DNA of 12,190 nucleotides from Acidimicrobiales bacterium (GTDB lineage Bacteria > Actinomycetota > Acidimicrobiia > Acidimicrobiales > Poriferisodalaceae). Made by a program: the position numbers and the translations under genes. The DNA is taken from the NCBI GenBank assembly GCA_020439485.1, contig JAGQSP010000324.1:1-12190 (forward strand). Direction: 5' to 3'. Each line of letters starts with the position of its first letter. The stretch's first letter is position 1. The notes below the pieces were generated by a model. The model made no database searches. It was not told where the DNA came from and saw only the letters and a list, made by a program, of their open reading frames with translations. Positions 1-12,190 of this stretch are shown here, piece after piece.

Positions 1-645
1 GCCGACGCCGCCCACGAGCTGCGCACCCCACTGGCCGTGATCCAGGCCTCGGCCACACAGGCATTGTCGAGACCGCGCGAGGCCGATGCGTACCGTCAGA
101 GCCTGGGCGAGATCGCCGACGCCGCCGAACGTGCGTCGAGCGGGGTAAACGAACTGCTCGAGTTCGCCAGACTCGAAGCTGGTCAGGCGCTGCCCCGGCT
201 GGCCCCCCTGCGCTTGGATCTGCTGGCAGAAGAGGTGGCTGCCTCGGTTCGCTCCGACGACTGCGCCATCGTCGCTGAAACGTCTGACTCGGTCGTGGTG
301 GATGCGGACTACGCATTGTTGCGGCAGGCCGTGGCGACGATCGTCGAGAACGCTGTGGCTCGCTCGAGCAACGTGAACGTGAGGGTTGTCGCCGACAAGA
401 ATCTCGGACGCATCGAGGTCGCCGACGACGGGCCTGGTTTCGATCCGGGCCATCTGGCCCACGTATTCGATCGGTTCCACCGCGGCGATCGTTCTGGCTC
501 GACCGGACTCGGCATGGCGATCGCCAAGAAGATCGTCGATTCTCACGGTGGCACCATCTCGGCAGACAACCGGACCGAGGGCGGCGCGATGGTGGTCATC
601 GCCTTGCGTGTGTCGCACGCGTCCGACAGGGGTCTGCGGATGTGA
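1..645 (+). CDS. Sensor histidine kinase, C-terminal part (5' end outside window)
   Basis: The reading frame is open from base 1, so the start and the sensor and membrane parts lie upstream. The visible 214 residues hold the whole kinase core. The H-box is at residues 3-14 (DAAHELRTPLAV), with the phosphorylated His at residue 5. The GHKL ATPase domain follows, with an N-box Asn near residue 117 (VENAV), a G1 box DDGPGF at 142-147, an F-box FDRF at 156-159 and a G2 box STGLGMA at about 167-173. All catalytic signatures look intact. By family knowledge it autophosphorylates on His and passes phosphate to a response regulator; the partner is not in the window and would be expected upstream. The protein stops right after the ATPase domain, so there is no receiver domain. 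The ligand or signal cannot be told from this part. Confidence 0.93.
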   Translation, partial: ADAAHELRTPLAVIQASATQALSRPREADAYRQSLGEIADAAERASSGVNELLEFARLEAGQALPRLAPLRLDLLAEEVAASVRSDDCAIVAETSDSVVVDADYALLRQAVATIVENAVARSSNVNVRVVADKNLGRIEVADDGPGFDPGHLAHVFDRFHRGDRSGSTGLGMAIAKKIVDSHGGTISADNRTEGGAMVVIALRVSHASDRGLRM

Positions 646-654
646 AACGATGCT

Positions 655-660
655 GAGGTG
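655..660 (+). promoter_or_regulatory. Ribosome binding site deciding the YqgE/AlgH start
   Basis: GAGGTG lies 6 bases before ATG 667. It includes the competing GTG (658-660), so the ATG is the better start. Confidence 0.6.
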
Positions 661-666
661 CGACCT

Positions 667-1158
667 ATGGCCGGTCGGCTCCTCGTAGCGACACCGATAC
701 TGGGCGATCCGAATTTCTTTCGGACCGTCATCCTGCTGCTGGACCACGGCGACCATGGATCGGCGGGCGTCGTGCTCAACCGGCCAGTCGACGAGCGCGT
801 CGTAGCCCTGATACCCAGTCTCGAAGGCTCCGTAGATGCCTCGGCCACGATCAGCTTCGGGGGGCCGGTCGAGCCCAACGGGGTCCTCGGTGTCACGCTG
901 CAGAGCGGCGAGCTGGTGCCGGCCGACCTCGACGAGATCGACATCGGCAGACCATTGCGAATCTTCATGGGCTACGCGGGCTGGTCGCCCGGACAGCTCG
1001 AAGACGAGCTGTCGGAGCATGCCTGGTGGGTCATCGAGGGTCGCCCGGCCGACGTATTCGGGCCCGAGCCCGAAGAGCTCTGGCACCGGGTGGTAGCCCG
1101 TCAGCCCGACCGGCGCCGGTTGCTCGCCAACATGCCAGAGGATCCCAGAACCAACTGA
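667..1158 (+). CDS. YqgE/AlgH family protein (UPF0301/DUF179)
   Basis: This 163-residue protein has the family hallmarks along its whole length: the N-terminal GRLLVATPILGD, then FFRTVILLLDHG, GVVLNRP, a central FGGPV and the later GYAGWSPGQLEDEL. The length is normal for the family and no signal peptide or membrane segment is visible. The biochemical function of the family is not established; AlgH has been linked to alginate regulation in Pseudomonas, which need not apply here. I choose ATG 667 because GAGGTG at 655-660 sits 6 bases upstream; an in-frame GTG at 658 would add three residues but overlaps that site. The gene starts 21 bases after the histidine kinase stop and probably shares its transcript. 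A 9-bp hairpin surrounds its stop codon. Confidence 0.92.
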   Translation: MAGRLLVATPILGDPNFFRTVILLLDHGDHGSAGVVLNRPVDERVVALIPSLEGSVDASATISFGGPVEPNGVLGVTLQSGELVPADLDEIDIGRPLRIFMGYAGWSPGQLEDELSEHAWWVIEGRPADVFGPEPEELWHRVVARQPDRRRLLANMPEDPRTN

Positions 1159-1173
1159 AATAGCGGTTCTGGG
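1144..1173 (+). terminator. Hairpin around the YqgE/AlgH stop codon, possible terminator
   Basis: CCCAGAACC (1144-1152) and GGTTCTGGG (1165-1173) form a perfect 9-bp stem with a 12-base loop that contains the TGA stop (1156-1158). A GC-rich GGGCCCGGGC run follows instead of a T tract, so it is not a classical intrinsic terminator. It could attenuate read-through into the aminotransferase gene or protect a 3' end. Confidence 0.4.
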
Positions 1174-1230
1174 CCCGGGCCGAGACCAGTATCGTCTCTG
1201 TCGACGACCACCCGAATCGAAGGATCGAAC

Positions 1231-2424
1231 GTGTCTCGAGTCTCCGCTGCTCTATCCGCTATCACACCGTCGGCCACCCTTGCCGTCGATGCAAAGGCCA
1301 AGGCGCTGAAGGCCGCAGGCGAAGCGGTGATCGGATTCGGCGCCGGCGAACCCGACTTCGCCACACCCGACCACATCGTCGAGGCCGCAGCGGCCGCCTG
1401 CCACGATCCCAAGAATCACCGCTATAGCCCGGCCGGCGGACTGCCCGAGCTGAAGGAGGCCATCGCCGCAAAGACCAAGCGCGATTCGGGTCTCGAGGTC
1501 GCAGCCGCCGATGTCTTGGTCACCAACGGTGGCAAGCAGGCCGTGTTCAACACGATGTTGGCGTTGGTCGACCCTGGTGATGAGGTCATCCTCCCGGCTC
1601 CTTACTGGACCACCTACCCCGAGCCGATCAGGCTGGCCGGTGGCATCCCGGTTGTGATTCCCACCACGGCCGCGTCGGGCTTTCGAGTATCCGTCGACCA
1701 GCTGGAAGCGGCCAGAACCGACCGCACCAAGGCTCTGGTGTTCGTCTCGCCCTCAAATCCCACCGGTGCTGTGTATCCGGCCGAAGAGATTGCTGCCATC
1801 GGTGCTTGGGCCAGCGAGCACGGGATCTGGGTCATCACCGACGAGATCTACGAGCATCTCGTGTACGGCGATGCCGTACACGCATCGATGCCGGTTCTTT
1901 GCCCCGACATCGCCGATCGCTGTGTGGTGCTGAACGGTGTTGCCAAGACCTACGCCATGACCGGCTGGCGGGTCGGGTGGATGATCGGCCCGGCCGACGT
2001 GATCAAGGCCGCCACCAACCTGCAGTCTCACGCCACCAGCAACGTCGCCAACGTCAGCCAGATCGCAGCCCTGGCCGCCGTGTCGGGGTCGCTCGACGCC
2101 GTGTCCGAGATGCGCCAGGCCTTCGACCGGCGTCGCAAGATCATCCACGGGCTGCTCAACTCGATCGACGGTGTCGACTGCCCCGAGCCAGAGGGTGCGT
2201 TCTATGCGTTCCCGTCGTTCGAGGGCGTGCTCGGCACAGAGCTGGCCGGACGTCGAATCGACACCACGCTGGATTTGGCCGACGTCGTACTGGACCAGGC
2301 CAAGGTGGCGTTCGTGCCCGGGGAGGCCTTCGGGGCGCCCGGCTATGCCCGCTTCTCGTTTGCCACCAGCGACGACAACATCACCGAAGGAATCGGGCGC
2401 ATCGCCCAGTTCCTCCAAGGCTGA
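1231..2424 (+). CDS. Class I PLP-dependent aminotransferase (aspartate aminotransferase-like)
   Basis: The 397-residue protein is a complete fold type I aminotransferase. Visible signatures, with roles assigned from the family: AGEPDF (38-43) and YSPAGG (65-70) near the N terminus; [10 protein letters not shown] with Asn176; [10 protein letters not shown] with Asp204 contacting the PLP pyridine nitrogen and Tyr207; the Schiff-base Lys239 in [13 protein letters not shown], with Arg247 near the cofactor phosphate; and Arg374 in [10 protein letters not shown], which binds the substrate alpha-carboxylate. The pattern best fits the subgroup of bacterial aspartate/prephenate aminotransferases; the exact amino donor cannot be fixed by eye. 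The start is GTG 1231, with GAAGGA (1219-1224) 6 bases upstream. The 72-base gap and hairpin before it suggest it may have its own promoter. It converges with the next gene, with only 10 bases between the two stop codons. Confidence 0.95.
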
Positions 2425-2434
2425 CCGGCGGCCC

Positions 2435-2758
2435 TCAGACCTTCGACGCCCTGAAGCCGTCGGCTTCGGCTGCCGAAGTGTCGCAGTAGCACCGATCGGC
2501 GATGGTGCGCTCATAGTTGCGCTGACCTTCGACGTGGTAGATGCCGCTCGACTGCTTGAGCTTCACCGGGTGCGACTGGGGACAATTCCCGTCGACGGCG
2601 GCGATCCATGGCGGAGCGACCGGCTCTGGTGTGGGCGACGCAGAGGTCGAATCGGTCGCAGGTACGCTGACGCCGGTGTCGCGTCGCCGCAAAACGCCCG
2701 CCACCACCGCGCCGATGATGACGAGGATGATCATCTTGATGATCTTGTCCATTCCCAT
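2435..2758 (-). CDS. Small membrane-anchored sunset domain protein
   Basis: This is a 107-residue protein read from ATG 2758 to TGA 2437-2435. Residues 5-23 form one hydrophobic segment (KIIKMIILVIIGAVVAGVL) followed by three Arg, consistent with an N-terminal anchor whose C-terminal orientation is uncertain. A Ser/Thr/Pro-rich linker runs over about 30-52. The C-terminal domain (about 59-107) has CPQSHPVKLK, SGIYHVEGQ, YERT, CYC and a final GFRASKV. I recognise this pattern from small actinobacterial proteins named sunset domain; its biochemical role is, to my knowledge, unknown. The open frame extends upstream to 3010, but that part is antisense to the neighbouring lipoprotein gene and has no family features. 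A second in-frame ATG at 2752 is also possible; neither has a strong ribosome site. It is divergent from the GH26-like gene. Confidence 0.8.
   Translation of the reverse strand: MGMDKIIKMIILVIIGAVVAGVLRRRDTGVSVPATDSTSASPTPEPVAPPWIAAVDGNCPQSHPVKLKQSSGIYHVEGQRNYERTIADRCYCDTSAAEADGFRASKV
2453..2478. terminator. Two overlapping hairpins between convergent genes, possible terminator
   Basis: GAAGCC-GTC-GGCTTC (2453-2467) and CTTCGG-CTG-CCGAAG (2464-2478) are both perfect 6-bp stems with 3-base loops. They share bases 2464-2467 and cannot form together. They lie 29-54 bases after the aminotransferase stop and inside the last codons of the convergent sunset-domain gene. No T tract follows on either strand, so a terminator role is only suggestive. 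Confidence 0.3.
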
Positions 2759-2767
2759 GACCGTACT

Positions 2768-2788
2768 TGCCGATAGCGCCATTCGGCA
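2768..2788. promoter_or_regulatory. Inverted repeat between divergent starts, candidate operator
   Basis: TGCCGA (2768-2773) and TCGGCA (2783-2788) are perfect inverted arms separated by 9 bases. The element lies inside the 44-base gap between the sunset-domain gene (start 2758) and the lipoprotein gene (start 2803), and just touches the ribosome site of the latter. Spacing and symmetry would suit a dimeric regulator serving both genes, or an RNA hairpin in the lipoprotein leader. No clear -10/-35 pair is seen. Confidence 0.35.
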
Positions 2789-2795
2789 GGTGGAG
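2788..2795 (+). promoter_or_regulatory. Ribosome binding site deciding the GH26-like lipoprotein start
   Basis: AGGTGGAG ends 7 bases before GTG 2803. It favours that start over the in-frame TTG at 2767, which would put 12 residues in front of the signal peptide. Confidence 0.6.
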
Positions 2796-2802
2796 TGTTG
2801 CG

Positions 2803-3861
2803 GTGCTTGAGTCGCGAAGGTGGCACGCGTATGCGTTGCTGGCTCTGGCAGTACTGCTGGCAGCGTGTTCGGGTAGCGATGATGAGGCCCTCGGCGACCC
2901 GACCTCGACCAGCGAAACACGGTCAACGCTGCCCGAGTCAACGTCATCGACCTCGTCGGTGGCTGCCACGACACCCAGCAGCGATGCCGGGTCAGCGATC
3001 GCGACCCCACCCATCGCCGAGCGACTGAGAACCGGAGCTCTGCTCGGCATGTCCACTGGGCTCACCCGCGCCGAGCGACAGCCCCGATGGGCCGAACTCG
3101 AGGAGCAGGCGGGGCGCACCTACGACATCGGGCATGTCTTTCATTCCTGGGACACGCCGATTCCGACCGAAGACGACCTCATGCACCTGGCCGACGGGCG
3201 CGTCCTGATGATCTCGTGGAACGGCACCGACACCAGAGAGATCGCGGCTGGCGCTCACGACGACTGGATTCGTTCCCAGGCGCAGGCGGTGCGCGACCTG
3301 GGCGAGCCGGTGCTGCTGCGGTGGCTGTGGGAGATGGACGGACAACGGCGACGAGACTGGGTTCACTCTGGTGCCGATTACGTAGCTGCATGGAACCACG
3401 TCCGCGATCTGTTCGCGACCGTTGGTGCAGACAACGCCGAGTTCGTCTGGTGCCCCAACGAGGCCCTGTTCTGGAACGGTGGTGACCCGATGCCGTGGTA
3501 CCCGGGTGACGACCGGGTCGACTGGCTGTGCGCAGACGGATACAACTGGGGCACCAGTTCGGCAGCCGCAGACTGGCTGAGCTTCGACCAGATCTTCGGC
3601 GACTTCTACCGATGGGCAGCGCCTAGGGGTCTGCCCATCATCATCGGCGAAACCGGCGTCGGCGAGGCCGAACCCGAAGCCAAAGCCCAGTGGCTGCTGG
3701 CACTTCCGGATGTGTTGAGGACCCAGTTCCCCGAGATCGATGCCGTGGTCTATTTCGACAAGGACTTCACGTTCCAAGGCCATCGAGACTGGCGGGTCGA
3801 CACATCGGCCTCGTCGCTAGAGGCCTGGCTGGCCATCAGCGCCGATCCGTGGTTCAACTGA
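2803..3861 (+). CDS. Secreted lipoprotein with GH26-like glycoside hydrolase domain
   Basis: The 352-residue protein starts with a lipoprotein signal: charged ESRRWH, a hydrophobic core, and the lipobox LLAAC with the lipidated Cys at 22. A Ser/Thr-rich linker follows to about residue 68. The rest resembles family 26 glycoside hydrolases (beta-mannanase and related): GALLGMSTG near the domain start, LLRWLWEMDG with probable acid/base Glu177, FVWCPN, the DGYNWGTSS stretch, and LPIIIGETG with probable nucleophile Glu283. In classical GH26 enzymes the acid/base Glu is preceded by His; here it is Trp. The enzyme would act outside the membrane on a polysaccharide whose identity cannot be read from the sequence. 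It is divergent from the sunset-domain gene and convergent with the polysaccharide operon (19 bases between stops), so trimming of the exported polymer is possible but inferred. Confidence 0.85.
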   Translation: MLESRRWHAYALLALAVLLAACSGSDDEALGDPTSTSETRSTLPESTSSTSSVAATTPSSDAGSAIATPPIAERLRTGALLGMSTGLTRAERQPRWAELEEQAGRTYDIGHVFHSWDTPIPTEDDLMHLADGRVLMISWNGTDTREIAAGAHDDWIRSQAQAVRDLGEPVLLRWLWEMDGQRRRDWVHSGADYVAAWNHVRDLFATVGADNAEFVWCPNEALFWNGGDPMPWYPGDDRVDWLCADGYNWGTSSAAADWLSFDQIFGDFYRWAAPRGLPIIIGETGVGEAEPEAKAQWLLALPDVLRTQFPEIDAVVYFDKDFTFQGHRDWRVDTSASSLEAWLAISADPWFN

Positions 3862-3880
3862 GGTTGGCATCGGCCTTGCG

Positions 3881-5416
3881 TTAGCCGCGGCGTTTGCCCC
3901 TGGGTTTCAGCGCCGAAACAAGCTCGTCGAGTCGCAGCAAGCCAGAGAACCGCGACAGGACCAGCAGGTGTATCGCGTAGGAGGTTGCGGCGACCAGCAG
4001 CACGAGGGCGAAGCTGGTGACGCCGCTGACCCGCAACACCAACGCGGGAATGCCCACACACACCAGGCCGATAGCGGCGGCCGTCGAGTGAGCTCGACCC
4101 AACGGGTTGATACCTATGCGGCGCTGGACCTGGGCCATGGGCACCAGGTTCGTGATCGCCAATCCGGCCGCCCATCCGATGGCGGCGCCCTTTACGCCCA
4201 TGGTGGGGACCAACAAGGCGTCGAGGGTGAGCATCGTGGTGACCGCTGCCAGATTGTCGATGAGCGACTGGCGCGAGCCACCGTCCATCAGCAGTACTGC
4301 CTCGATCGGGCCAGATCCCGAAGCGACCATCATCGCCAGGCTCAGGATCGTCAACGCAGCCGCTCCTGTGGTGTACTCGGGGCCGAACAGCTGGGCCAGG
4401 AACGGTTCGCCGATGAGTGCCAAGACGATGTATCCGGGCCACACCACGGCGACCAGCCAGGCTGTTCCGGTCTTCAGCAGGTGTGCGGCCTCGTCGCGGT
4501 CGCTTCTTCCCAAGGCCTCGCTGACCAGGGGTGATACCGCCTGCACTATCGCACCGTTGACGAAGTTGCCCGCTATGAGCAGGCGCGACACGGCGGTGTA
4601 GACCGCCACCGGCCCCGGCCCGGCCAGGGTTGCGACGATCAGGATGTCTGCCCACCTCAACAACACGTACAGCACGTTGGTTGCAGCCTGGGGAACGGTG
4701 AACTCCCAGTATTGCGAGGCCGTCACCTCCGAACCACCGTCGGAAGAGCTGGGCGAGTCGCTTTGAGTGCGGCCCGCCAGTCGCCAGAACCATGCCAGAG
4801 CGACTGCGAAAGCCGCCGCGAACGACAGCGACCAGGCCAGCCCAACAACAGCTGCGCCGGCACCGAACGCCGAGACGATGACCACCATGCCCAACTGGCT
4901 GAGCGGCTTTGCGATGCGGTCGGCCAGGGCGGTTGGGGCCATGGTGCCCATGCCTCGCGTAGACGCCAGCAACACCGAGGCCAAAGTGGCCAGCGGGATG
5001 AATGGCATCATCGCCAGCAGGATTCGGGCCAACTCTTCCGGGTTGTCCTCGGTGAGCCAGGCGGCAATCTGGCCCCTGGCCAGAGCGATCGCCGCAGCTA
5101 TGGCGCAACTTGTCACCAAGGCGGGCGCCGCTGCAGTCCTCAAGAGAGCCTTGGCAGAGCCGCGGTTCTGGGCGGTGAAGCGTACGAGGCCGACATCGGC
5201 CCCCAGGGCAGAGACGGCGAACACGATGTTGAACATCGCGATAGCGGTGAAAACCTGGCCGCTTCGCTGCTTGTCGAGAGCACCGGTGATGGCGACGATC
5301 ACCAAGAAAGCGGCGATCCCGTTCACCACCGATCCGGCAAAGGCGATCAGGCCCGACCGGGCCAGCGAGGTGGTTTCTCTACGACCCTCTAGGGCTTGGG
5401 ACGCGGGTTCTGCCAC
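3881..5416 (-). CDS. Wzx-type polysaccharide flippase (MATE/oligosaccharide flippase superfamily)
   Basis: The 511-residue protein is a polytopic membrane protein with about 12-14 hydrophobic segments spread from ARSGLIAFAGSVVNGIAAF near the N terminus to VLLVAATSYAIHLLVL near the C terminus. SALGADVGLVRFTAQ after the second segment is typical of polysaccharide flippases, and the length fits. It would flip lipid-linked repeat units across the cytoplasmic membrane. The start is taken as GTG 5416, which comes one base after the stop of the upstream fusion gene (TGA-T-GTG). The frame is also open to a GTG at 5491 with a GAGG motif before it; that would add 25 residues without hydrophobic or family character and overlap the previous gene by 74 bases. 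It is the last gene of the minus-strand operon and ends 19 bases from the convergent GH26-like gene. Confidence 0.88.
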   Translation of the reverse strand: MAEPASQALEGRRETTSLARSGLIAFAGSVVNGIAAFLVIVAITGALDKQRSGQVFTAIAMFNIVFAVSALGADVGLVRFTAQNRGSAKALLRTAAAPALVTSCAIAAAIALARGQIAAWLTEDNPEELARILLAMMPFIPLATLASVLLASTRGMGTMAPTALADRIAKPLSQLGMVVIVSAFGAGAAVVGLAWSLSFAAAFAVALAWFWRLAGRTQSDSPSSSDGGSEVTASQYWEFTVPQAATNVLYVLLRWADILIVATLAGPGPVAVYTAVSRLLIAGNFVNGAIVQAVSPLVSEALGRSDRDEAAHLLKTGTAWLVAVVWPGYIVLALIGEPFLAQLFGPEYTTGAAALTILSLAMMVASGSGPIEAVLLMDGGSRQSLIDNLAAVTTMLTLDALLVPTMGVKGAAIGWAAGLAITNLVPMAQVQRRIGINPLGRAHSTAAAIGLVCVGIPALVLRVSGVTSFALVLLVAATSYAIHLLVLSRFSGLLRLDELVSALKPRGKRRG

Positions 5417-5417
5417 A

Positions 5418-7622
5418 TCAGTCCCACAGGCTGTCGGCGTCCCTGCCGATGCGCTGGGCAAGAGCCGCGTCAGAAGCCGCGAACTCCTCACGCAGCCTCA
5501 ACCGCAGCGATTCGTCCATCGACGGATATCGGCGAGCGTTGTAGCGAGGAAACGAGATCGATCCCATCAAAGCGACCCCGAGGAAACGAAGTACCTCGTC
5601 GACGACCTGGGCCGGGTTGGCCTCGAGGTCGATCGTTCGGATCACCATCACGTTCGACTTGCCGAACAGTTCGTCGTAGCGCGAGATCTGTTCCATGTAG
5701 CGCCCGCGGGCGGCGTACGAGTAGTGCTGATGCGCGTAGCTGACATACAGCGGATCGGCCGCCATGAGGTCGACCTCTCCAGCCAGACGTCGGGCTTCGA
5801 GGTCCAGTGCCGAGGCGAAGTCTTCGGTCTCGAACCCGCGCTTGACCTCGTGATTGTGGTGCGACAGGGCCCGCTCGACGGGGTCGCGGACGAGCACGAG
5901 GATCTTCGCGTCGGGGGTCGCCGCATGGATGCGCTCGGGCACAAAGGGGTGGAACAGGTAATAGGGCGACGCCTCGACGGTGCGCATGTCGCAGCCGTTC
6001 AGCTGCCGCGAGAGCTTCAAACGCGCCTGAGTAGGGAAGTGCGACCGGTACCAGTCGAGGTCGCCTGTGTAGTTGGTGTCGTAGAAGTGCACACCCTTCT
6101 CGAGCATCGGGCCCACGACCGAGCGGTGTTGGGTGAGGTACCGGAACAGCGAGGTGGTGCCACAACGTTGTGCGCCGACGATGTAGGTGTTGGGCAGCAC
6201 GCGATAGCTCGAGGTCGCCCGTCCGTATCCCTTGGCGGCCTTCTTTATGGCGTCGCGGGCCGGGGTCGGAACGCCCGAACCTCCGAGCATTCGACGGGTA
6301 AACAGGCGAGGCTTGTCGGCGACCGGCGGGTCGTGGCGTTCGCTTCGCCGATCCTCGGTCTTCTCGCCGATACGCGGGATGTGGTGGCGCAATTCCACGA
6401 TCAGTTCCTTATAGGTGCGGACCAGCTCGGCGTCGTCTCGCAGAGAAGATTCCGCGAATCGTAGAGCCAGCTCGATGAGGTACAGAACAGTGATCAGGTC
6501 GTGCTCGTCACCATCAACACCCAGCCGCGCGAGTTCCGAGGGAACCGTCTGCTGGACGTTGTCGAGGCCACTGGCCACCGACTTGCCAGACGAGTGGAAC
6601 GAACGCTGGAAGTGATAGTGCACGAGGTCGAGACCGATTGGCACGTCGTCGGCGGCGCGCTCCCAATCCCACACACCGACGCGCCGGCCCATGCGGCGCA
6701 TGTTCCACGGCGACCAGTCGCCGTGGGACGAGCCGAAGGTGACAGGGCGATCTCCGTGCGAGCTGAGGCACCGTGTCAGTGCTTCGCCCAGCTCCGCGCC
6801 CGCGGGGCCAAGCGCTTCGACCCGTGCCAGTTGGCGCAGTGTCCAATCGGCTTCGGCCAGGGGCACCCGCGACTGCTCGGTCAGGCTGGCCACCTCGGCA
6901 AGAGCCTCGAGAACCATGCGCGGTGGCATGTCGATTGGGCCGTCGTCGACCAGGGGTGCCGTGATCAGGATCGACATCTCGCGCCACCGGCCGAAGTGAA
7001 GCAGCTTGGGCACGAGGAGGTTTCGGAAGAGTCTTCCATCGAACTTCTCGAGCTGCCCGGCTTCTGATTCGACCATGCGGCGGGTCGACTCATCCCAACC
7101 GATCTTGGCGTAGGCGACCAGCGAACCGCTGCGGTCCATCAGCTGAAGAACCGGCTTGCGGTTGGGGCGCAGCGGTCCCAGGTTGACGGCGAGACAGAGT
7201 TCGTGGTCGTCGATCGCAGACTCGAGATACTCGGTCAGTGTGCGGGGCTCGCGATAGCTCGACCGCTCGGCCGCCTCGTCCATCGGGGCGCTGAACACTA
7301 TGTCGGGGCCCAAAGCGAGGTGATCGATGCCCAGATGGGCGGCACTGGCACCCAGGTATCTGGCGATCGAGCCCAAGCTGTGACCACCCGATCTGGTGGC
7401 GGCCCGCCTCAGCACCGCTCCGCGAACGACCCGCGATGCCCCGCTGATCAGCATCCGTGGCTGGTTGACCGACGGGTAGACCGTGAAGCGGTCCAGCTCG
7501 ACGTGGTCGTCCGGGCACTTGCCGCGGGTGGTCACCACGTTGGCGTCATGGCCTCTGAGGATGTCGATAATCCACTCGAGGCTGGGGTTAACGATCGGCT
7601 GTTCGACCACGGTAGACGTCAA
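5418..7622 (-). CDS. Fusion protein: APH/choline-kinase-like kinase plus PAPS-dependent sulfotransferase
   Basis: One uninterrupted 734-residue frame. Residues 1-160 match no domain I know. Residues about 165-415 are a phosphotransferase of the aminoglycoside/choline kinase fold: Lys173 in YAKIGWD (ATP), Glu187 on the next helix, the Brenner motif HGDWSPWN with Asp302 and Asn307, and WDWER with metal-binding Asp319. A charged linker (about 418-445) leads to a sulfotransferase (about 475-734): 5'-phosphosulfate loop IVGAQRCGTTSLFR (481-494), the VHFYD and LDWYRSHFP segments, 3'-phosphate site ILVLVRDPVERALSHHNHE (574-592), and RGRYMEQISRY (639-649). No internal ribosome site was seen before Met445, where a separate sulfotransferase could begin. 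TTG 7622 is chosen because AAGGA (7635-7631) precedes it by 8 bases, and it lies 3 bases after the polymerase stop. Substrates are unknown; the context points to polysaccharide modification. Confidence 0.9.
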   Translation of the reverse strand: MTSTVVEQPIVNPSLEWIIDILRGHDANVVTTRGKCPDDHVELDRFTVYPSVNQPRMLISGASRVVRGAVLRRAATRSGGHSLGSIARYLGASAAHLGIDHLALGPDIVFSAPMDEAAERSSYREPRTLTEYLESAIDDHELCLAVNLGPLRPNRKPVLQLMDRSGSLVAYAKIGWDESTRRMVESEAGQLEKFDGRLFRNLLVPKLLHFGRWREMSILITAPLVDDGPIDMPPRMVLEALAEVASLTEQSRVPLAEADWTLRQLARVEALGPAGAELGEALTRCLSSHGDRPVTFGSSHGDWSPWNMRRMGRRVGVWDWERAADDVPIGLDLVHYHFQRSFHSSGKSVASGLDNVQQTVPSELARLGVDGDEHDLITVLYLIELALRFAESSLRDDAELVRTYKELIVELRHHIPRIGEKTEDRRSERHDPPVADKPRLFTRRMLGGSGVPTPARDAIKKAAKGYGRATSSYRVLPNTYIVGAQRCGTTSLFRYLTQHRSVVGPMLEKGVHFYDTNYTGDLDWYRSHFPTQARLKLSRQLNGCDMRTVEASPYYLFHPFVPERIHAATPDAKILVLVRDPVERALSHHNHEVKRGFETEDFASALDLEARRLAGEVDLMAADPLYVSYAHQHYSYAARGRYMEQISRYDELFGKSNVMVIRTIDLEANPAQVVDEVLRFLGVALMGSISFPRYNARRYPSMDESLRLRLREEFAASDAALAQRIGRDADSLWD

Positions 7623-7625
7623 TGT

Positions 7626-8927
7626 TCAGGTCCTTGCGAGCTGCTGGGTTCCAGTCGGAACAAGCTGCGTCGCAGTTGAGGATCTGGCGGGTGGGGCTTG
7701 CCCGTCTTCGTCCGGCACACCTCTCAGAGCTATGGCTCCGGCGATGAAGACGAGGAAGATCGGCTGGTTGATCAGCTCGTAGTACCACATCAACATGGGC
7801 ACCAAAGCCGTGGTGACGTGTATCCACACCCCTACGCGGTCTTGATTCTTGAGGGTTCGCCACGCCAGGCCTATCGAGAACATCACATAGATGACGGCGC
7901 CCGGGATGCCGTGACTGTAGAGAACAGTCCAGAATTGGCCGTGTGTTCCCACCGCCGGCAGGCCGGGCCGCTCCTCGTTGACCCTGGGTGCCCCGTAGCC
8001 GACCAGCGGCGAATCCTGTACCTGGTCGATGACCTGGCTGTAAAGCGTCAGCCTGCCGTCGTCAGAGTGGCCGTTGGCAATACGTTCCGAGATCAGGGTG
8101 CCAAGCGGCGAGGCGACCAGTGCCAGACCGATGACCGCACCAGCCACCAGCATTCCAACCAGGTACCGCATGTCGCCCTTGGAGGCCAGTACGAACACCC
8201 CGTAGGTGACGCCTACGAGCAGGCCGATCCAAAGGCCCCGGTTGACCGATACGACGATGGGCACAAGCGCCAAGAACCCGATCAGCACTATCCAGGTGCG
8301 CCACTTGCGGTCGAGGCCGGCGAAGGCAGCCATCATCAGCGGAGCCAATAGGGCCAGCGCCGAGCCCCATTCGTTGGTGAAGGTGAAGGGTGCTGTTGGG
8401 CGATACAGGGGGAACCCCAGGAAACTCTGGTTCTGGGCGAGCGTCGGGTGGACGAGGCTCACCGCATAGTCGTTCTGTCTTATTGCGGCGGGCAGGAGGC
8501 TCTCGGTTACCGAGGTGAACTCGAAGTCCCCGAAGGTCACCGCCAGATAACCGCCCAAGACAGCGAAGCCCGTGTAGATGACAGCCAGCTTCAATATCCG
8601 CTCGCGGGGGAGTTCCTTGTGCGAGAGATTGAACACGTACAAGAACACGATCGCAGTGGCGATGTACAACACCAGCCGGTAGCCGACGCTGATGAAGCGA
8701 AGGCCGTCTGCTTGGGTCATCGAGACGAACACCCACGCAATGAACAGCATGTAGGTGCCAAAGCCCTTGGGGGCCCGAACCGGTGTCTTTCGCAGCAGGA
8801 TCGCGGCCATGGGGATCGCCGCGATCTGCCAGATGAGGCCGCCGAGACCAAGCGCCCACCACAACGGCATGCCCACGATGACCGCCGTCAGCGGCCACGA
8901 TCTCGAGCGGGTCGGGCGGCCCGCCAT
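7626..8927 (-). CDS. O-antigen ligase/Wzy polymerase-like membrane protein
   Basis: The 433-residue protein has about 10-12 hydrophobic segments. Three features fit the Wzy_C/O-antigen ligase family: SVNRGLWIG with Arg230, the counterpart of the usual SRGxWLG; RLTLYSQVIDQVQDSPLVGYG at about 292-312, before a long external loop; and GTHGQFWTVLYSHGIPGAV at about 327-345, with a conserved His. It would polymerise flipped repeat units, or ligate glycan to an acceptor, on the outer face of the membrane; in a cluster with a flippase, polymerase is more likely. The start is ATG 8927, 2 bases after the upstream GT2 stop. The frame is open further to 9059, but those 44 residues are antisense-like, arginine-rich and overlap the GT2 gene. 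Confidence 0.87.
   Translation of the reverse strand: MAGRPTRSRSWPLTAVIVGMPLWWALGLGGLIWQIAAIPMAAILLRKTPVRAPKGFGTYMLFIAWVFVSMTQADGLRFISVGYRLVLYIATAIVFLYVFNLSHKELPRERILKLAVIYTGFAVLGGYLAVTFGDFEFTSVTESLLPAAIRQNDYAVSLVHPTLAQNQSFLGFPLYRPTAPFTFTNEWGSALALLAPLMMAAFAGLDRKWRTWIVLIGFLALVPIVVSVNRGLWIGLLVGVTYGVFVLASKGDMRYLVGMLVAGAVIGLALVASPLGTLISERIANGHSDDGRLTLYSQVIDQVQDSPLVGYGAPRVNEERPGLPAVGTHGQFWTVLYSHGIPGAVIYVMFSIGLAWRTLKNQDRVGVWIHVTTALVPMLMWYYELINQPIFLVFIAGAIALRGVPDEDGQAPPARSSTATQLVPTGTQQLART
7631..7635 (-). promoter_or_regulatory. Ribosome binding site for the fusion gene's TTG start
   Basis: AAGGA lies 8 bases before TTG 7622, inside the final codons of the upstream polymerase gene. It supports the unusual TTG start over a later GTG at 7610, and suggests translational coupling. 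Confidence 0.5.
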
Positions 8928-8929
8928 CG

Positions 8930-9856
8930 TCAGATGCCCCGGCCGAAGCGCTGAATCTTGGCCACGACCGTGTCGGCGGATACCAGGCCGGTGCTGACCA
9001 GAAGGGCAAGGTAGGCGCGGCGCTCTCGCCACGACGAGCGCAAGGTCCGCCTGGACCATCGGCGGGCCTCCGAGCGGTTGCCGATGGCTGCGTGGGCGAA
9101 CGCGATCTGGCCTTCGATGCGGGCCTTACCGACGCCATCACGATCGAACTCGGGGTAGCACCCCAGCAGATATGTGAGTGCGTCTATTCGCGTCTGCCAG
9201 TTCTCGACGAAAAAGCTCGCGGTGTGCCAAAGCACGTTGACGATGGCGTCTGGCACCACCGCTATGTCGGTGACCCTGGCGATCCTCAACAGGTATTCGT
9301 AGTCCTCGGCGTAGCTCCCCGGCAGGGCCTCGTCGACCATGCCGACCTCATCGACGAGCGAACGCTCGAACACAAAGGACGACGGGTGCGCCTCGACGAT
9401 GCGCGACCTGAGAAGGTCATCGAAAGTGATGCGGCCCATGTCAGGAACCCGCCGTGTGGTCGTGTCCTCGAAGTGCACGTCGATGGCGCCGACGGCCATG
9501 CGCATGTCCGAACTCTCGAGCACGGCAAGCTGAAGGGCGAGCTTGTCGCAGGACCATGTGTCATCGTCGTCGCAAAAGGCGATGTAGGTGCCTGAGGCCA
9601 GTTCGAGCCCGGTGTTGCGTCCACCGGCGAGGCCGGGCTTGCGTTGGTTGGACACCGTGCGCACAGGACGGCGCGCGTCGTTGCTGTCGAGCGAGCCGTC
9701 GACCTCGGTCCGGTCGAACACAACGATGGCTTCGACGACTCCCTCGTAGCTCTGTGCGGCTATGGCGGCGAGGGTCTTGCGGAGCAACTCCGGCCGATCG
9801 CGCGTGGGCACGATCACGGTCACATCGACCTGACCGTCACGGCTTTCGTTCGTCAT
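8930..9856 (-). CDS. Family 2 glycosyltransferase
   Basis: The 308-residue protein is a GT-A glycosyltransferase. The nucleotide-sugar fold starts with VTVIVPTRDRPELL (12-25); NQRKPGLAGGRNTGLELASG (70-89) is the standard segment before the metal site; FCDDDDTW (94-101) carries the DXD motif that binds the metal and the nucleotide-sugar phosphates; and AEDYEYLLR (183-191) holds the ED pair expected near the catalytic base. No membrane segment is evident, so it probably works on the cytoplasmic membrane surface, adding a sugar to the lipid-linked intermediate. Donor and acceptor sugars cannot be read from the sequence. ATG 9856 overlaps the stop of the upstream sulfotransferase gene in ATGA. 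AGGAG (9862-9866) precedes the start by 5 bases, inside that gene. Confidence 0.93.
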   Translation of the reverse strand: MTNESRDGQVDVTVIVPTRDRPELLRKTLAAIAAQSYEGVVEAIVVFDRTEVDGSLDSNDARRPVRTVSNQRKPGLAGGRNTGLELASGTYIAFCDDDDTWSCDKLALQLAVLESSDMRMAVGAIDVHFEDTTTRRVPDMGRITFDDLLRSRIVEAHPSSFVFERSLVDEVGMVDEALPGSYAEDYEYLLRIARVTDIAVVPDAIVNVLWHTASFFVENWQTRIDALTYLLGCYPEFDRDGVGKARIEGQIAFAHAAIGNRSEARRWSRRTLRSSWRERRAYLALLVSTGLVSADTVVAKIQRFGRGI

Positions 9857-10842
9857 CTCTGCTCCTGTCTGCGGTAGCCATAGGCAGTGCTGAGGGGCCA
9901 GGTGAGGGCTCCGACAATCCGCTTGTCACGTGGTTCCATCTCATCGACCCAGGCGCGGTCCAGGCGCAGATCGACGCGCCCGTGCTTGAACCGACTGGGG
10001 TTGCCGGCCACGGTGTGAGTGGGGCCCAGCTCCACCCAGCCGTCGCCGATGTGGTCGAGTTCGAGAGGCGTGAGCCCCGCGAACTCCATCAGCGAAGCGA
10101 CCTGGCCGCGCGGGTCGCTCATGACGTCTTCATACCGCACCAACTGGCGTGGGGTGTGCACTGTGCGCAAGCCGTGCAGCATCAGGTTGTAGCTGAGCCA
10201 CTTGGAGCTGGTGCGAGCCGGTGAGTAGCGCGGCATCTCGTCGTGGCCGGCTGTGACCTCGGGCCTGGCGACCGTCTTCGCCCAGCTGTACGCAACACCC
10301 TGGCTCTCTCTCACCAGGTGGGCAACCCTCACGTCGATGCCTCCTATCTGCGACAGCAGGTAGGCGTAGGAAACGTGTTTGGTCGAGTCGACTATCACCT
10401 CTGCGCCGCTCACCTCGCGGATGGCGCGATAGATGTCAAGCAGGATCGAGGTGTAGCGGGCCTGAGCACGGGCCCGAGACGGATGCAGCTGCGGAACCAC
10501 CATCAAGGGCACAAAGCGGTTGCGGTCGACTCGCCTCTGGAGGTCGATGACCTCGTCGAGGTCCAGGTGATCCCAGCCTCCGAAGGCCACCTCGCCGACA
10601 CGCGTCCAGAACTCGCAGTCGCGGAGTGGTTTGGCGCAACCACACAACTCGTTGTCGGCAAGACCCCTGTGCCAAAGGTGGACCAACTCGCCTATGGAGA
10701 CGGCGTTGGAGTGTTGACCGAGCACGTTGGCGACGATCGTCGACCCCGATCGACCAAGACCGGCTAGGAACAGGACCTTTACATCGTTCGCGTCTTCGCC
10801 GGCAGACGGGGTCGTTTGGGCCGCGCTGGTAGCGGGCTGCAT
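9853..10842 (-). CDS. PAPS-dependent sulfotransferase family protein
   Basis: The 329-residue protein has a 5'-phosphosulfate loop VLFLAGLGRSGSTIVANVL (23-41), a Cys-containing CGCAKPLRDCEFW (67-79) often seen in this bacterial group, VDSTKHVSY (151-159), the 3'-phosphate motif RVAHLVRESQGVAYSW (172-187), LVRYEDV (234-240) and a C-terminal HTVAGNPSRF (276-285). It resembles the Sulfotransfer_3 type and differs clearly from the sulfotransferase half of the fusion protein in the same operon. It would move sulfate from PAPS to a hydroxyl or amine of a glycan or lipid in the cytoplasm; no enzymes making PAPS are in the window. ATG 10842 is preceded by GGTGA at 5 bases. GTG 10851 would overlap the previous stop as GTGA and is a real alternative adding three residues. 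The frame is open to 11298, but that part is a shadow of the upstream gene. Confidence 0.88.
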   Translation of the reverse strand: MQPATSAAQTTPSAGEDANDVKVLFLAGLGRSGSTIVANVLGQHSNAVSIGELVHLWHRGLADNELCGCAKPLRDCEFWTRVGEVAFGGWDHLDLDEVIDLQRRVDRNRFVPLMVVPQLHPSRARAQARYTSILLDIYRAIREVSGAEVIVDSTKHVSYAYLLSQIGGIDVRVAHLVRESQGVAYSWAKTVARPEVTAGHDEMPRYSPARTSSKWLSYNLMLHGLRTVHTPRQLVRYEDVMSDPRGQVASLMEFAGLTPLELDHIGDGWVELGPTHTVAGNPSRFKHGRVDLRLDRAWVDEMEPRDKRIVGALTWPLSTAYGYRRQEQR

Positions 10843-10847
10843 CGAGG

Positions 10848-11429
10848 TCACCGCCTTCGCCCGGCGACCAGGCGTTCGACGATCTGACCAACCCGCCTCA
10901 CCGTCATGTCGACGTGGCGCTGGTCTTGAGGGGGCAGTGTCTGAGGGTTGGCGATCATGTCGTCGAGAAGGGCGCGGAAGTCTTCCTCGGTGCGGGCGAT
11001 GAGGATCTGGCCGGCGGCGGCCATGCGCTCGCAGAACAGCTGTTGGTGATTGTCGACGTGTTCGCCCAGTGCTGGGTCGCGCGGAACCACGATGGGCAGC
11101 TTCCCGGCGCGGCGGCACTCGACTATCGAGCCCGGTCCGCCGTGGGTGATGACGACGTCGGCGGCCTGCAGTTCGCGCACGAGGTCGTGGAACGCAAAGT
11201 ATTCGACCGAAGGAGCACATCCGGGCTTCGAGTATCCGCGCTGGACGAACGCCTGGATCTGCTGGGGCCGTTCGATGGCAAGCCACGAATCGAACCATTC
11301 GACCGCCCGGTCGAACGGGTGCACGTCGGTTCCCAGCGACATCAGTACGTGCCGGGTGATGACCTTGGGCTTGCTCGAAGCAGCGGTGTGCTTGACCTGC
11401 ACCTGGGTTTGGGCCGGACGCGGTGTCAT
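10848..11429 (-). CDS. Alg13/PssE-like catalytic subunit of a split glycosyltransferase
   Basis: The 193-residue protein corresponds to the C-terminal half of a GT-B (GT28-type) glycosyltransferase. After a 25-residue Gln/Thr/Lys-rich lead comes VLMSLGTDVHPFDR (28-41), where the family has its GT(D/T)xxPFDRL start. The nucleotide-sugar site VITHGGPGSIVECRRAGKLP (93-112) follows, then PRDPALGEHVDNHQ (116-129) and a helical C terminus. Proteins of this kind (Alg13, PssE, Cps14G) are known to pair with an Alg14/PssD-like membrane partner, and the gene just upstream encodes exactly that. The pair would transfer the second sugar onto a lipid-linked first sugar. ATG 11429 shares one base with the partner's stop (TGATG), and GGGAGGG (11443-11437) lies 7 bases upstream. 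The frame is open to 11735, but that extension is antisense-like. Confidence 0.88.
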   Translation of the reverse strand: MTPRPAQTQVQVKHTAASSKPKVITRHVLMSLGTDVHPFDRAVEWFDSWLAIERPQQIQAFVQRGYSKPGCAPSVEYFAFHDLVRELQAADVVITHGGPGSIVECRRAGKLPIVVPRDPALGEHVDNHQQLFCERMAAAGQILIARTEEDFRALLDDMIANPQTLPPQDQRHVDMTVRRVGQIVERLVAGRRR

Positions 11430-11878
11430 CACAGAACCCTCCCTACGACGATGCCTCGTGGGTAGAGCCCTCGCTGCTCTTCCCACTGCAGCAGGAACCG
11501 GTCGCTGAGCGGATAACACATGCGCCCGGCCATGGTCCGCGAATCGAGCCTGTCGTAGACCTCTAGGTACACGGTGTTGACCTTGCGCAGCTTCGCCGCG
11601 AGGAAGAAGGGTGGAGCTACTCCGGCCCCGGTGGAGACAACTACATCTGGCTTGAAGGTCGAGATCACACGATGGGCCAGAATGAAGTTCTTGGCCATGT
11701 TCGGTATGTTTCGTGTGGTCGGGTGGTTGGACCACACCACACGTTCACCCTCGAGCAGCGACTCGGCGTCGGGTTTTTCGGCTGTTACCCAAACGCGGTC
11801 GTGCTCTTCCCACCACGACCGGAGAGCCAGCAGCTGGTGAAGATGACCTCCATTTGAGGAAACCAACAGCAGTTTCAT
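11429..11878 (-). CDS. Alg14/PssD-like membrane subunit of a split glycosyltransferase
   Basis: The 149-residue protein matches the N-terminal half of a GT-B glycosyltransferase. It opens with KLLLVSSNGGHLHQLLAL (2-19), the family's SxGGHxxQLL signature. Then come VWVTAEKPDAESLL, TRNIPNMAKNFILAHRVI and the FKPDVVVSTGAGVAPPFFLAAKL segment, which in the Alg14 group helps place the complex at the membrane. YLEVYDRLDSRTMAGRM follows, near the acceptor side. It should recruit and complete the Alg13-like enzyme encoded immediately downstream. It starts at ATG 11878, with a weak GAGGT 10 bases upstream that is part of an inverted repeat in the leader. It is the first complete gene of the operon in the window; the gene before it ends 168 bases upstream. 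Confidence 0.9.
   Translation of the reverse strand: MKLLLVSSNGGHLHQLLALRSWWEEHDRVWVTAEKPDAESLLEGERVVWSNHPTTRNIPNMAKNFILAHRVISTFKPDVVVSTGAGVAPPFFLAAKLRKVNTVYLEVYDRLDSRTMAGRMCYPLSDRFLLQWEEQRGLYPRGIVVGRVL
11437..11443 (-). promoter_or_regulatory. Strong ribosome binding site of the Alg13-like gene
   Basis: GGGAGGG lies 7 bases before ATG 11429 and within the last codons of the Alg14-like gene. It fixes the start and argues against the long upstream open frame or a later Met at residue 30. Confidence 0.6.
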
Positions 11879-12046
11879 GTCACGAACGACCTCGTCGGGT
11901 TAGGCGATTGCCTCCCATCGGCTCACTTGGGCTCCGATGTGAGGTCGTGGCAGCGACAGATGACTGCTCGCCCGCCCCATCTGTGCATCGAGCGTAGCCA
12001 TCGCCGAGGTGTCAGCGATACGCGCGGTCGCAGGCCTGTTGGTTCG
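11879..12046 (-). other. Intergenic leader of the glycosyltransferase pair
   Basis: These 168 bases separate the C-terminal kinase fragment from the Alg14-like gene, the largest gap inside the minus-strand cluster. They hold the nested inverted repeats and a short in-frame open stretch after the kinase stop. I see no convincing -10/-35 promoter, though a start site for the downstream operon would fit here. Confidence 0.4.
11886..11948 (-). promoter_or_regulatory. Nested inverted repeats in the leader of the Alg14-like gene
   Basis: ACGACCTC (11886-11893) and GAGGTCGT (11941-11948) can pair over 8 bp. Inside them, CATCGG (11916-11921) and CCGATG (11934-11939) can pair over 6 bp with a 12-base loop. 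On the minus-strand transcript the outer stem would cover GAGGT, the only ribosome-site-like sequence before ATG 11878. This may control translation of the operon's glycosyltransferase pair. The fold has not been computed. Confidence 0.3.
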
Positions 12047-12190
12047 TCAGCCGACGCTGCGGTCGCCGAAGCGTCGAGCGATCCATGAGGGCCTCACGGT
12101 GGTCGCAAGCCCGATGACCTTGGTGCCGGCCTCTTGGATCAGGCGCGCTGCGTCTGTGACGTCGTTGGTCGTCGTGCGACCACTCAGCCC
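12047..12190 (-). CDS. C-terminal end of a probable polysaccharide co-polymerase/tyrosine kinase (start outside window)
   Basis: The frame is open from the right edge of the window and gives 47 residues before TGA 12049-12047. The visible part, GRTTTNDVTDAARLIQEAG (4-22) then TKVIGLATTV, looks like the last strand-helix-strand of the P-loop domain of Wzc/CpsD-type bacterial tyrosine kinases, where a GxTT segment is followed by a helix and a (V/I)(L/I)G strand. This assignment rests on a short stretch and on context: such a protein commonly heads Wzx/Wzy clusters and controls chain length with the polymerase. The kinase Walker motifs would lie outside the window. No Tyr cluster is present at the visible C terminus, which would be odd for an autokinase. 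It could also be another P-loop or Rossmann-type protein. Confidence 0.6.
   Translation of the reverse strand, partial: GLSGRTTTNDVTDAARLIQEAGTKVIGLATTVRPSWIARRFGDRSVG

Follow-up and report, generated by a model that had tools for sequence, protein, structure and literature searches.

A predicted kinase-sulfotransferase fusion protein in a Wzx/Wzy-type polysaccharide locus of an Acidimicrobiales bacterium

Introduction

The nearest described system is the wps-1 cluster of Actinoplanes missouriensis, which the accessible part of PMC13390465 describes as encoding, numbered in order, WpsE (GH26), WpsF (methyltransferase), WpsG (Wzx), WpsH (heparan-sulfate-type sulfotransferase), WpsI (protein-kinase-like), WpsJ (Wzy), WpsK (Wzz) and WpsB (another sulfotransferase), with a gene of the sulfate adenylyltransferase/APS kinase family at its border. 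Sporangia are squashed when either wpsH or wpsI is deleted, as they are when the whole cluster is removed. The authors state that sulfation is unproven and that trapped lipid-linked intermediates may underlie the single-gene defects; we therefore do not take the phenotype as proof that a modification matters. To the authors' knowledge none of the Wzx/Wzy clusters characterised so far includes a GH26 enzyme, and the same part of the paper mentions no fusion. It raises possible sulfated polysaccharides in actinomycetes, with proof awaited, and describes those of bacteria as exclusively cyanobacterial, which conflicts with papers on the capsules of Vibrio and Cobetia.

Here we follow up a first-pass annotation of a 12,190-nt stretch of DNA from an Acidimicrobiales bacterium (GCA_020439485.1, contig JAGQSP010000324.1, positions 1 to 12,190; hereafter the window), in which a kinase and a sulfotransferase appear joined in one gene. 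What is new is the fused form and its apparently repeated origin; the unfused pair is already known genetically.

Results

The gene occupies 5418-7622 on the minus strand as a single frame of 734 codons (734 aa), and the complete kinase and PAPS motif sets that the first-pass annotation had read in it are present. The kinase half (residues 1-415, 6378-7622) opens with an extension of ~125 residues ahead of the kinase N-lobe (residues ~1-125, 7248-7622), which is alpha/beta structure in the predicted model and may resemble the N-terminal cap found in maltokinase and glucosamine kinase, and continues as the kinase fold, in which alignment placed the catalytic loop HGDWSPWN at residues 300-307 (6702-6725). 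A linker of residues 416-444 (6291-6377), for which model confidence is mostly low, leads to the sulfotransferase half (residues 445-734, 5421-6290), which matches the PAPS sulfotransferase profile (PF00685/PF13469) and contains the PAPS-binding motifs. These are IVGAQRCGTTS at residues 481-491 (6150-6182), which we take to be the PAPS 5'-phosphosulfate loop, and LVRDPVERALSH at residues 577-588 (5859-5894), presumably the PAPS 3'-phosphate motif, located by sequence and alignment; all these features lie on the minus strand. In the predicted structure (pTM 0.64) it is uncertain how the two halves are oriented to each other, and pLDDT is below 50 at residues 436-449. By Pfam, the fusion contains no methyltransferase domain and only a sulfotransferase. 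Sequence comparison confirmed both halves as intact, one of the APH/choline-kinase type and one of the PAPS-sulfotransferase type, and the earlier reading of two enzyme folds in one chain was upheld, the chain sitting in a Wzx/Wzy-type polysaccharide locus.

A sequencing error joining two genes, a reservation of the first-pass annotation, could be ruled out, because 32 further database proteins (P0002-P0033) align across both halves and another metagenome-assembled genome, L003 (Actinomycetes bacterium), carries the fused gene with the same neighbours and a kinase half 72% identical to that of the window. The whole-protein database search (about 8000 candidates scored) gave at least 46 matches, among them the window's own protein (P0001) on a second, 931-kb contig. 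The architecture is thus recurrent, and the kinase precedes the sulfotransferase in all 33 aligned fused proteins, three of which are incomplete (P0019 is without its N-terminus, P0020 stops early and the C-terminus of P0022 is unusual). NCBIfam held no family for the fusion. The remark that no characterised enzyme is known with this architecture therefore needs amending, in that the arrangement recurs and the unfused wpsH and wpsI have been tested genetically, but it stands for the fused form, of which, or of whose pathway, our literature search found no description (most subscription papers lay outside its reach). Two further joined proteins were seen: in P0035 (854 aa, Nocardioides campestrisoli) a related sulfotransferase domain is fused to a flippase, and in P0038 (805 aa) to a GT2 glycosyltransferase.

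The window spans the locus from PssD to Wzx plus a convergent GH26-like gene. On the minus strand, a PssD-like glycosyltransferase half (11429-11878; NF041549, 118.5 bits, cut-off 110) is followed by a PssE-like half (10848-11430, approximate start; Glyco_tran_28_C, NCBIfam PssE under cut-off), a second sulfotransferase (9853-10845, approximate start; Sulfotransfer_3), a GT2 glycosyltransferase (8930-9856, profile match), a Wzy-type polymerase (7626-9059; Wzy_C), the fusion, whose start lies 3 bases past the Wzy stop, and a Wzx-type flippase (3881-5491; Pfam Polysacc_synt_3) with a likely GTG start at 5416, 1 base past the fusion stop. The GH26-like gene (2767-3861, plus strand) is convergent to this operon and reaches 18.5 bits with Pfam GH26, under the cut-off of 20.2; relatives of it occur at many of the compared loci. 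The second, different sulfotransferase also occurs in Acidimicrobiales and several Micromonosporaceae loci. The order in the window is the wps-type layout, with kinase and sulfotransferase between Wzy and Wzx, and the locus probably builds a sulfated surface polysaccharide. The window's own genome also has a partial match to a canonical APS kinase.

In L003, second-round profiles gave the order Wzz - PssD - PssE - second sulfotransferase - GT2 - Wzy - fusion - Wzx. Four Acidimicrobiales loci (L015, L019, L021, L025) have this order with kinase and sulfotransferase separate, and Wzx was not seen past the sulfotransferase. The Micromonosporaceae loci (L006-L014, L018, L022) read Wzz - Wzy - kinase - sulfotransferase - Wzx - GH26-like, as does L028 without the GH26-like gene behind. 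L004 and L005 read Wzy - Wzx - sulfotransferase - kinase, L026 and L029 are rearranged, and the examined DNA showed no Wzx at L027 and no other locus gene at L016, L017, L020, L023 and L024. The gene order of L007 (A. couchii) is that of wps-1, and its sulfotransferase neighbour matches the profile with 335 bits. The A. missouriensis protein P0115 shares 82% identity with the A. couchii kinase and, over 265 residues, 34% with the kinase half of the window (E 1e-41); it is probably WpsI, judged from the species and the likeness to the A. couchii kinase.

Relatives encoded as two adjacent genes, for which the first-pass annotation had suggested looking, proved common. When the kinase half alone was compared with reference genomes, 27 loci were obtained, of which one (L003) is a fusion and the other 26 have an unfused kinase. 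In 20 of these 26, a sulfotransferase matching the same profile adjoins the kinase on the same strand, after it in 19 and before it in one (L005); the loci are not independent, since 7 of the 20 adjacent ones are Dactylosporangium, and at L017 the examined DNA covers only the first part of the sulfotransferase. At L004 the sulfotransferase lies ~1 kb off with a GH26-like gene between it and the kinase, at L029 it is on the opposite strand 1.9 kb away, and none was found in the examined DNA around four kinases of Geodermatophilaceae metagenome-assembled genomes (L016, L020, L023, L024; three of them on contigs no longer than 9.0 kb). Among 296 genomes of the window's class, 22 matched the kinase at E<=1e-10; besides the own genome these were 18 with strong matches (E <=5.5e-68) and 3 with weak ones (~1e-11 to 1e-12). 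Outside the own genome, the sulfotransferase adjoins the strong kinase in at least 10 of the 18 (7 kinase first, 3 sulfotransferase first), lies 2.6-9.5 kb away on the same contig and strand in 3, and was not found on the kinase contig in 5 (2 on contigs of at most 4.2 kb); these counts are lower bounds because at most three candidates per genome were scored, and within the same scope the own genome is the only one with both halves in one frame. Among 396 genomes of the phylum, 21 had a kinase match at E<=1e-15. A sulfotransferase adjoins seven newly found kinases (L083, L087, L088, L089, L091, L102, L103); none was seen in the examined DNA of L084, L085, L086 (contig end) and L090/L104 (fragmented), nor within ~1.5 kb of ten weaker kinases (L092-L101). 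In 13 of 22 separate kinase-first pairs (22 of 31 were checked, for ATG starts only), the two genes share an ATGA, in which the start ATG of the second overlaps the stop codon of the first. These ATGs lie 23-52 residues, mostly 40-48, ahead of QRCGTT, and Met445 of the fusion lies 40 residues ahead of it, so the fusion junction appears to be close to the old start codon. The neighbouring genes of relatives thus make the fusion look real and suggest that the two steps belong together.

A single origin of the fusion was rejected by the AU test on a careful kinase tree, built from 46 of the 133 rows, hand-picked and including 14 of the 33 fused ones (p-AU 1.09e-55 for a single fused clade, 3.8e-12 for the two large fused groups alone). 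On this tree the fused label needs four changes across the whole 5-95% bootstrap range. First, the window's group stands beside unfused proteins, among them L015, L019 and L025 of the Acidimicrobiales (an unstarred branch with 92/92 support). Second, the group P0023-P0033, without P0031, stands beside the unfused P0070, P0073, P0076 and P0077 (starred branch). Third, P0031 stands beside a Nocardioidaceae pair (starred), and last, P0021 stands apart. The quick trees agree on more than one origin. The quick kinase tree held 121 of the 133 rows (L003, L009-L014, L021, L022, L072, L075 and L090 omitted), and the placement of P0031 is unsure, since the long branches of L026 and P0031 meet in it. 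The quick sulfotransferase tree, with 79 of 88 rows (L003, L009-L014, L021 and L022 omitted), gives four label changes, three of them forced by starred branches. About four separate fusions would most simply account for these trees. The trees alone cannot tell gain from loss; repeated gain is favoured because the unfused state is commoner and adjacent.

Kinases of the APH/choline-kinase type are marked by an HGDxxxxN catalytic loop, an N-lobe Lys-Glu pair and a metal-binding Asp. All of these are present in the window, and His300, Gly301, Asp302, Asn307, Lys173, Glu187 and Asp319 are each kept in 131-133 of 133 rows, so that fold and catalytic motifs place the kinase half in this superfamily. 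With PF01636 (APH) it scores 17.4 bits, below the gathering cut-off of 23.2, and 13 of the 40 members of set A2 match this family at E<=1. Foldseek gave an actinobacterial glucosamine kinase as the best match and also listed maltokinase; this top match names no substrate, because the scores to several APH-fold families are close. The kinase profile found weak matches only among PDB sequences, the best being choline kinase 4r77 (E 0.081). Identity as a glucosamine kinase was rejected, since the actinobacterial signature Q-x2-RE-x2-YA-x3-LP-x-W, taken from the accessible part of PMC6520443, occurs in none of the 133 kinase rows. Aminoglycoside resistance is not favoured, as the gene context points to polysaccharide.

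The catalytic base of heparan sulfate 3-OST is a Glu (Glu90/Glu184) within a KExH motif, according to the accessible part of PMC8341778. In the window the corresponding stretch is KGVHFYD (residues 509-515, 6078-6098, minus strand), where Gly510 aligns with this Glu, so the KExH of 3-OST is absent. With P0020 and P0022 excluded from the counts, the 32 fused rows divide into 22 with Gly and 10 with Glu at this site, and the 37 adjacent rows into 36 with Gly, one with Ser and none with Glu; the 32 fused rows represent 31 genes, as L003 and P0003 are apparently the same gene. All 32 fused rows retain both His512 and Asp515, and of the 37 adjacent rows 36 retain the His and 35 the Asp, so loss of the Glu with His and Asp kept is common in this sulfotransferase subfamily. 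Of 19 'unpaired' sulfotransferases, which have no strong kinase within ~1.5 kb, 12 also carry Gly. These 19 rows make a poor control because they were picked by likeness to the window's sulfotransferase family, several belong to genomes that encode a kinase at another place, and two have weak kinase-like neighbours. The latter are very weak kinase-family matches (L048 2127-3395, 40 bits; L054 605-1654, 54 bits) and perhaps distant forms of the kinase-sulfotransferase pair. Because the base Glu of 3-OST is Gly in the window, the mechanism of the sulfotransferase may differ, a different base or substrate assistance being possible. The kinase step might even prime sulfation, the new phosphate sitting in the sulfotransferase site and taking the role of the missing Glu, so that one enzyme would make a phosphorylated and sulfated repeat unit in ordered steps with substrate-assisted sulfation. 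Such priming would explain why the kinase is paired mostly with Gly-type sulfotransferases (36/37 adjacent, 22/32 fused), but we consider it improbable, given the Glu in 10 fused rows and the Gly in 12 of the 19 rows without a strong kinase nearby.

Discussion

With moderate confidence, we favour the reading that the fused WpsI-WpsH phosphorylates and sulfates a lipid-linked repeat unit before it is flipped by Wzx. The protein would be the fused counterpart of WpsI and WpsH and would serve a Wzx/Wzy exopolysaccharide pathway in the cytoplasm, at the membrane. The PssD/PssE and GT2 glycosyltransferases would assemble the repeat unit on a lipid carrier, the kinase half would transfer phosphate from ATP onto a sugar hydroxyl of the lipid-linked unit, and the sulfotransferase half would transfer sulfate from PAPS onto the same unit; Wzx would then flip the decorated unit and Wzy polymerise it. 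Decoration before export is suggested by the kept catalytic residues, the position between polymerase and flippase, the P0035 and P0038 fusions and the partial APS-kinase match. From these we infer the activity of both halves, the lipid-linked acceptor, the action on one molecule and the order of the steps.

Less likely, though the strongest of the alternatives, is that the kinase half acts on small-molecule sugars, making a sugar phosphate for a nucleotide-sugar precursor, and that fusion merely equalises the amounts of two proteins from one pathway. The Foldseek matches to glucosamine kinase and maltokinase agree with this, and the actinobacterial glucosamine kinase phosphorylates free glucosamine (PMC6520443, accessible part), but the top match does not name a substrate among such close scores, the signature is absent from all 133 rows, and repeated fusion to the same kind of partner with the kinase first in 33 of 33 fits a shared substrate better than co-expression. 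It is doubtful that the kinase caps the chain on its terminal sugar while the sulfotransferase modifies that end, as in WbdD-like length control. WbdD is indeed a kinase and a modifying enzyme in one chain (PMC3482155, accessible part); however, it works with ABC-transporter export, whereas the window's locus has Wzx and Wzy and its relatives have Wzz, and in Wzx/Wzy pathways polymerisation takes place outside the membrane and Wzz sets the length (PMC13390465). We think it equally doubtful that the kinase half serves substrate recognition (already raised by the first-pass annotation) or scaffolding as a non-catalytic or regulatory module: the Pfam APH score below threshold would fit, but near-invariant catalytic residues in 133 rows speak against it, and the wpsI deletion phenotype (PMC13390465) does not discriminate, because loss of a scaffold could look alike. 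Local conversion of APS to PAPS by the kinase would account for the tight link with the sulfotransferase but is very improbable, as the own genome has a partial canonical APS kinase match and a sulfate adenylyltransferase/APS kinase family gene adjoins wps-1 (PMC13390465).

Since kinase and sulfotransferase have been tied together more than once, the polymer is predicted to carry phosphate or to need a phosphorylated intermediate. With the fusion, both reactions can be assayed in a single protein, and the kinase-sulfotransferase pair beside Wzy and Wzx offers a marker for such loci across Actinomycetota.

The fusion differs from known systems as follows. First, it shares fold and motifs with the APH/choline-kinase superfamily, including glucosamine kinase and maltokinase, but the kinase half falls below the Pfam cut-off and is without the glucosamine-kinase signature. 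Second, it differs from heparan sulfate 3-OST and NDST by Gly510 in place of the catalytic Glu and by the attached kinase. Third, WbdD of E. coli O9a likewise joins a glycan kinase and a second modifying enzyme in one chain, but the latter is a methyltransferase rather than a sulfotransferase, and WbdD has a coiled coil and acts as chain terminator in an ABC-transporter pathway (PMC3482155). At last, wps-1, as far as the accessible part of PMC13390465 describes it, has kinase-like and sulfotransferase genes adjacent between Wzy and Wzx (by gene number), together with GH26, Wzz and a second sulfotransferase; it differs in having two genes where the window has one, WpsF methyltransferase and GT26 where the window has PssD/PssE, and a sporangium phenotype.
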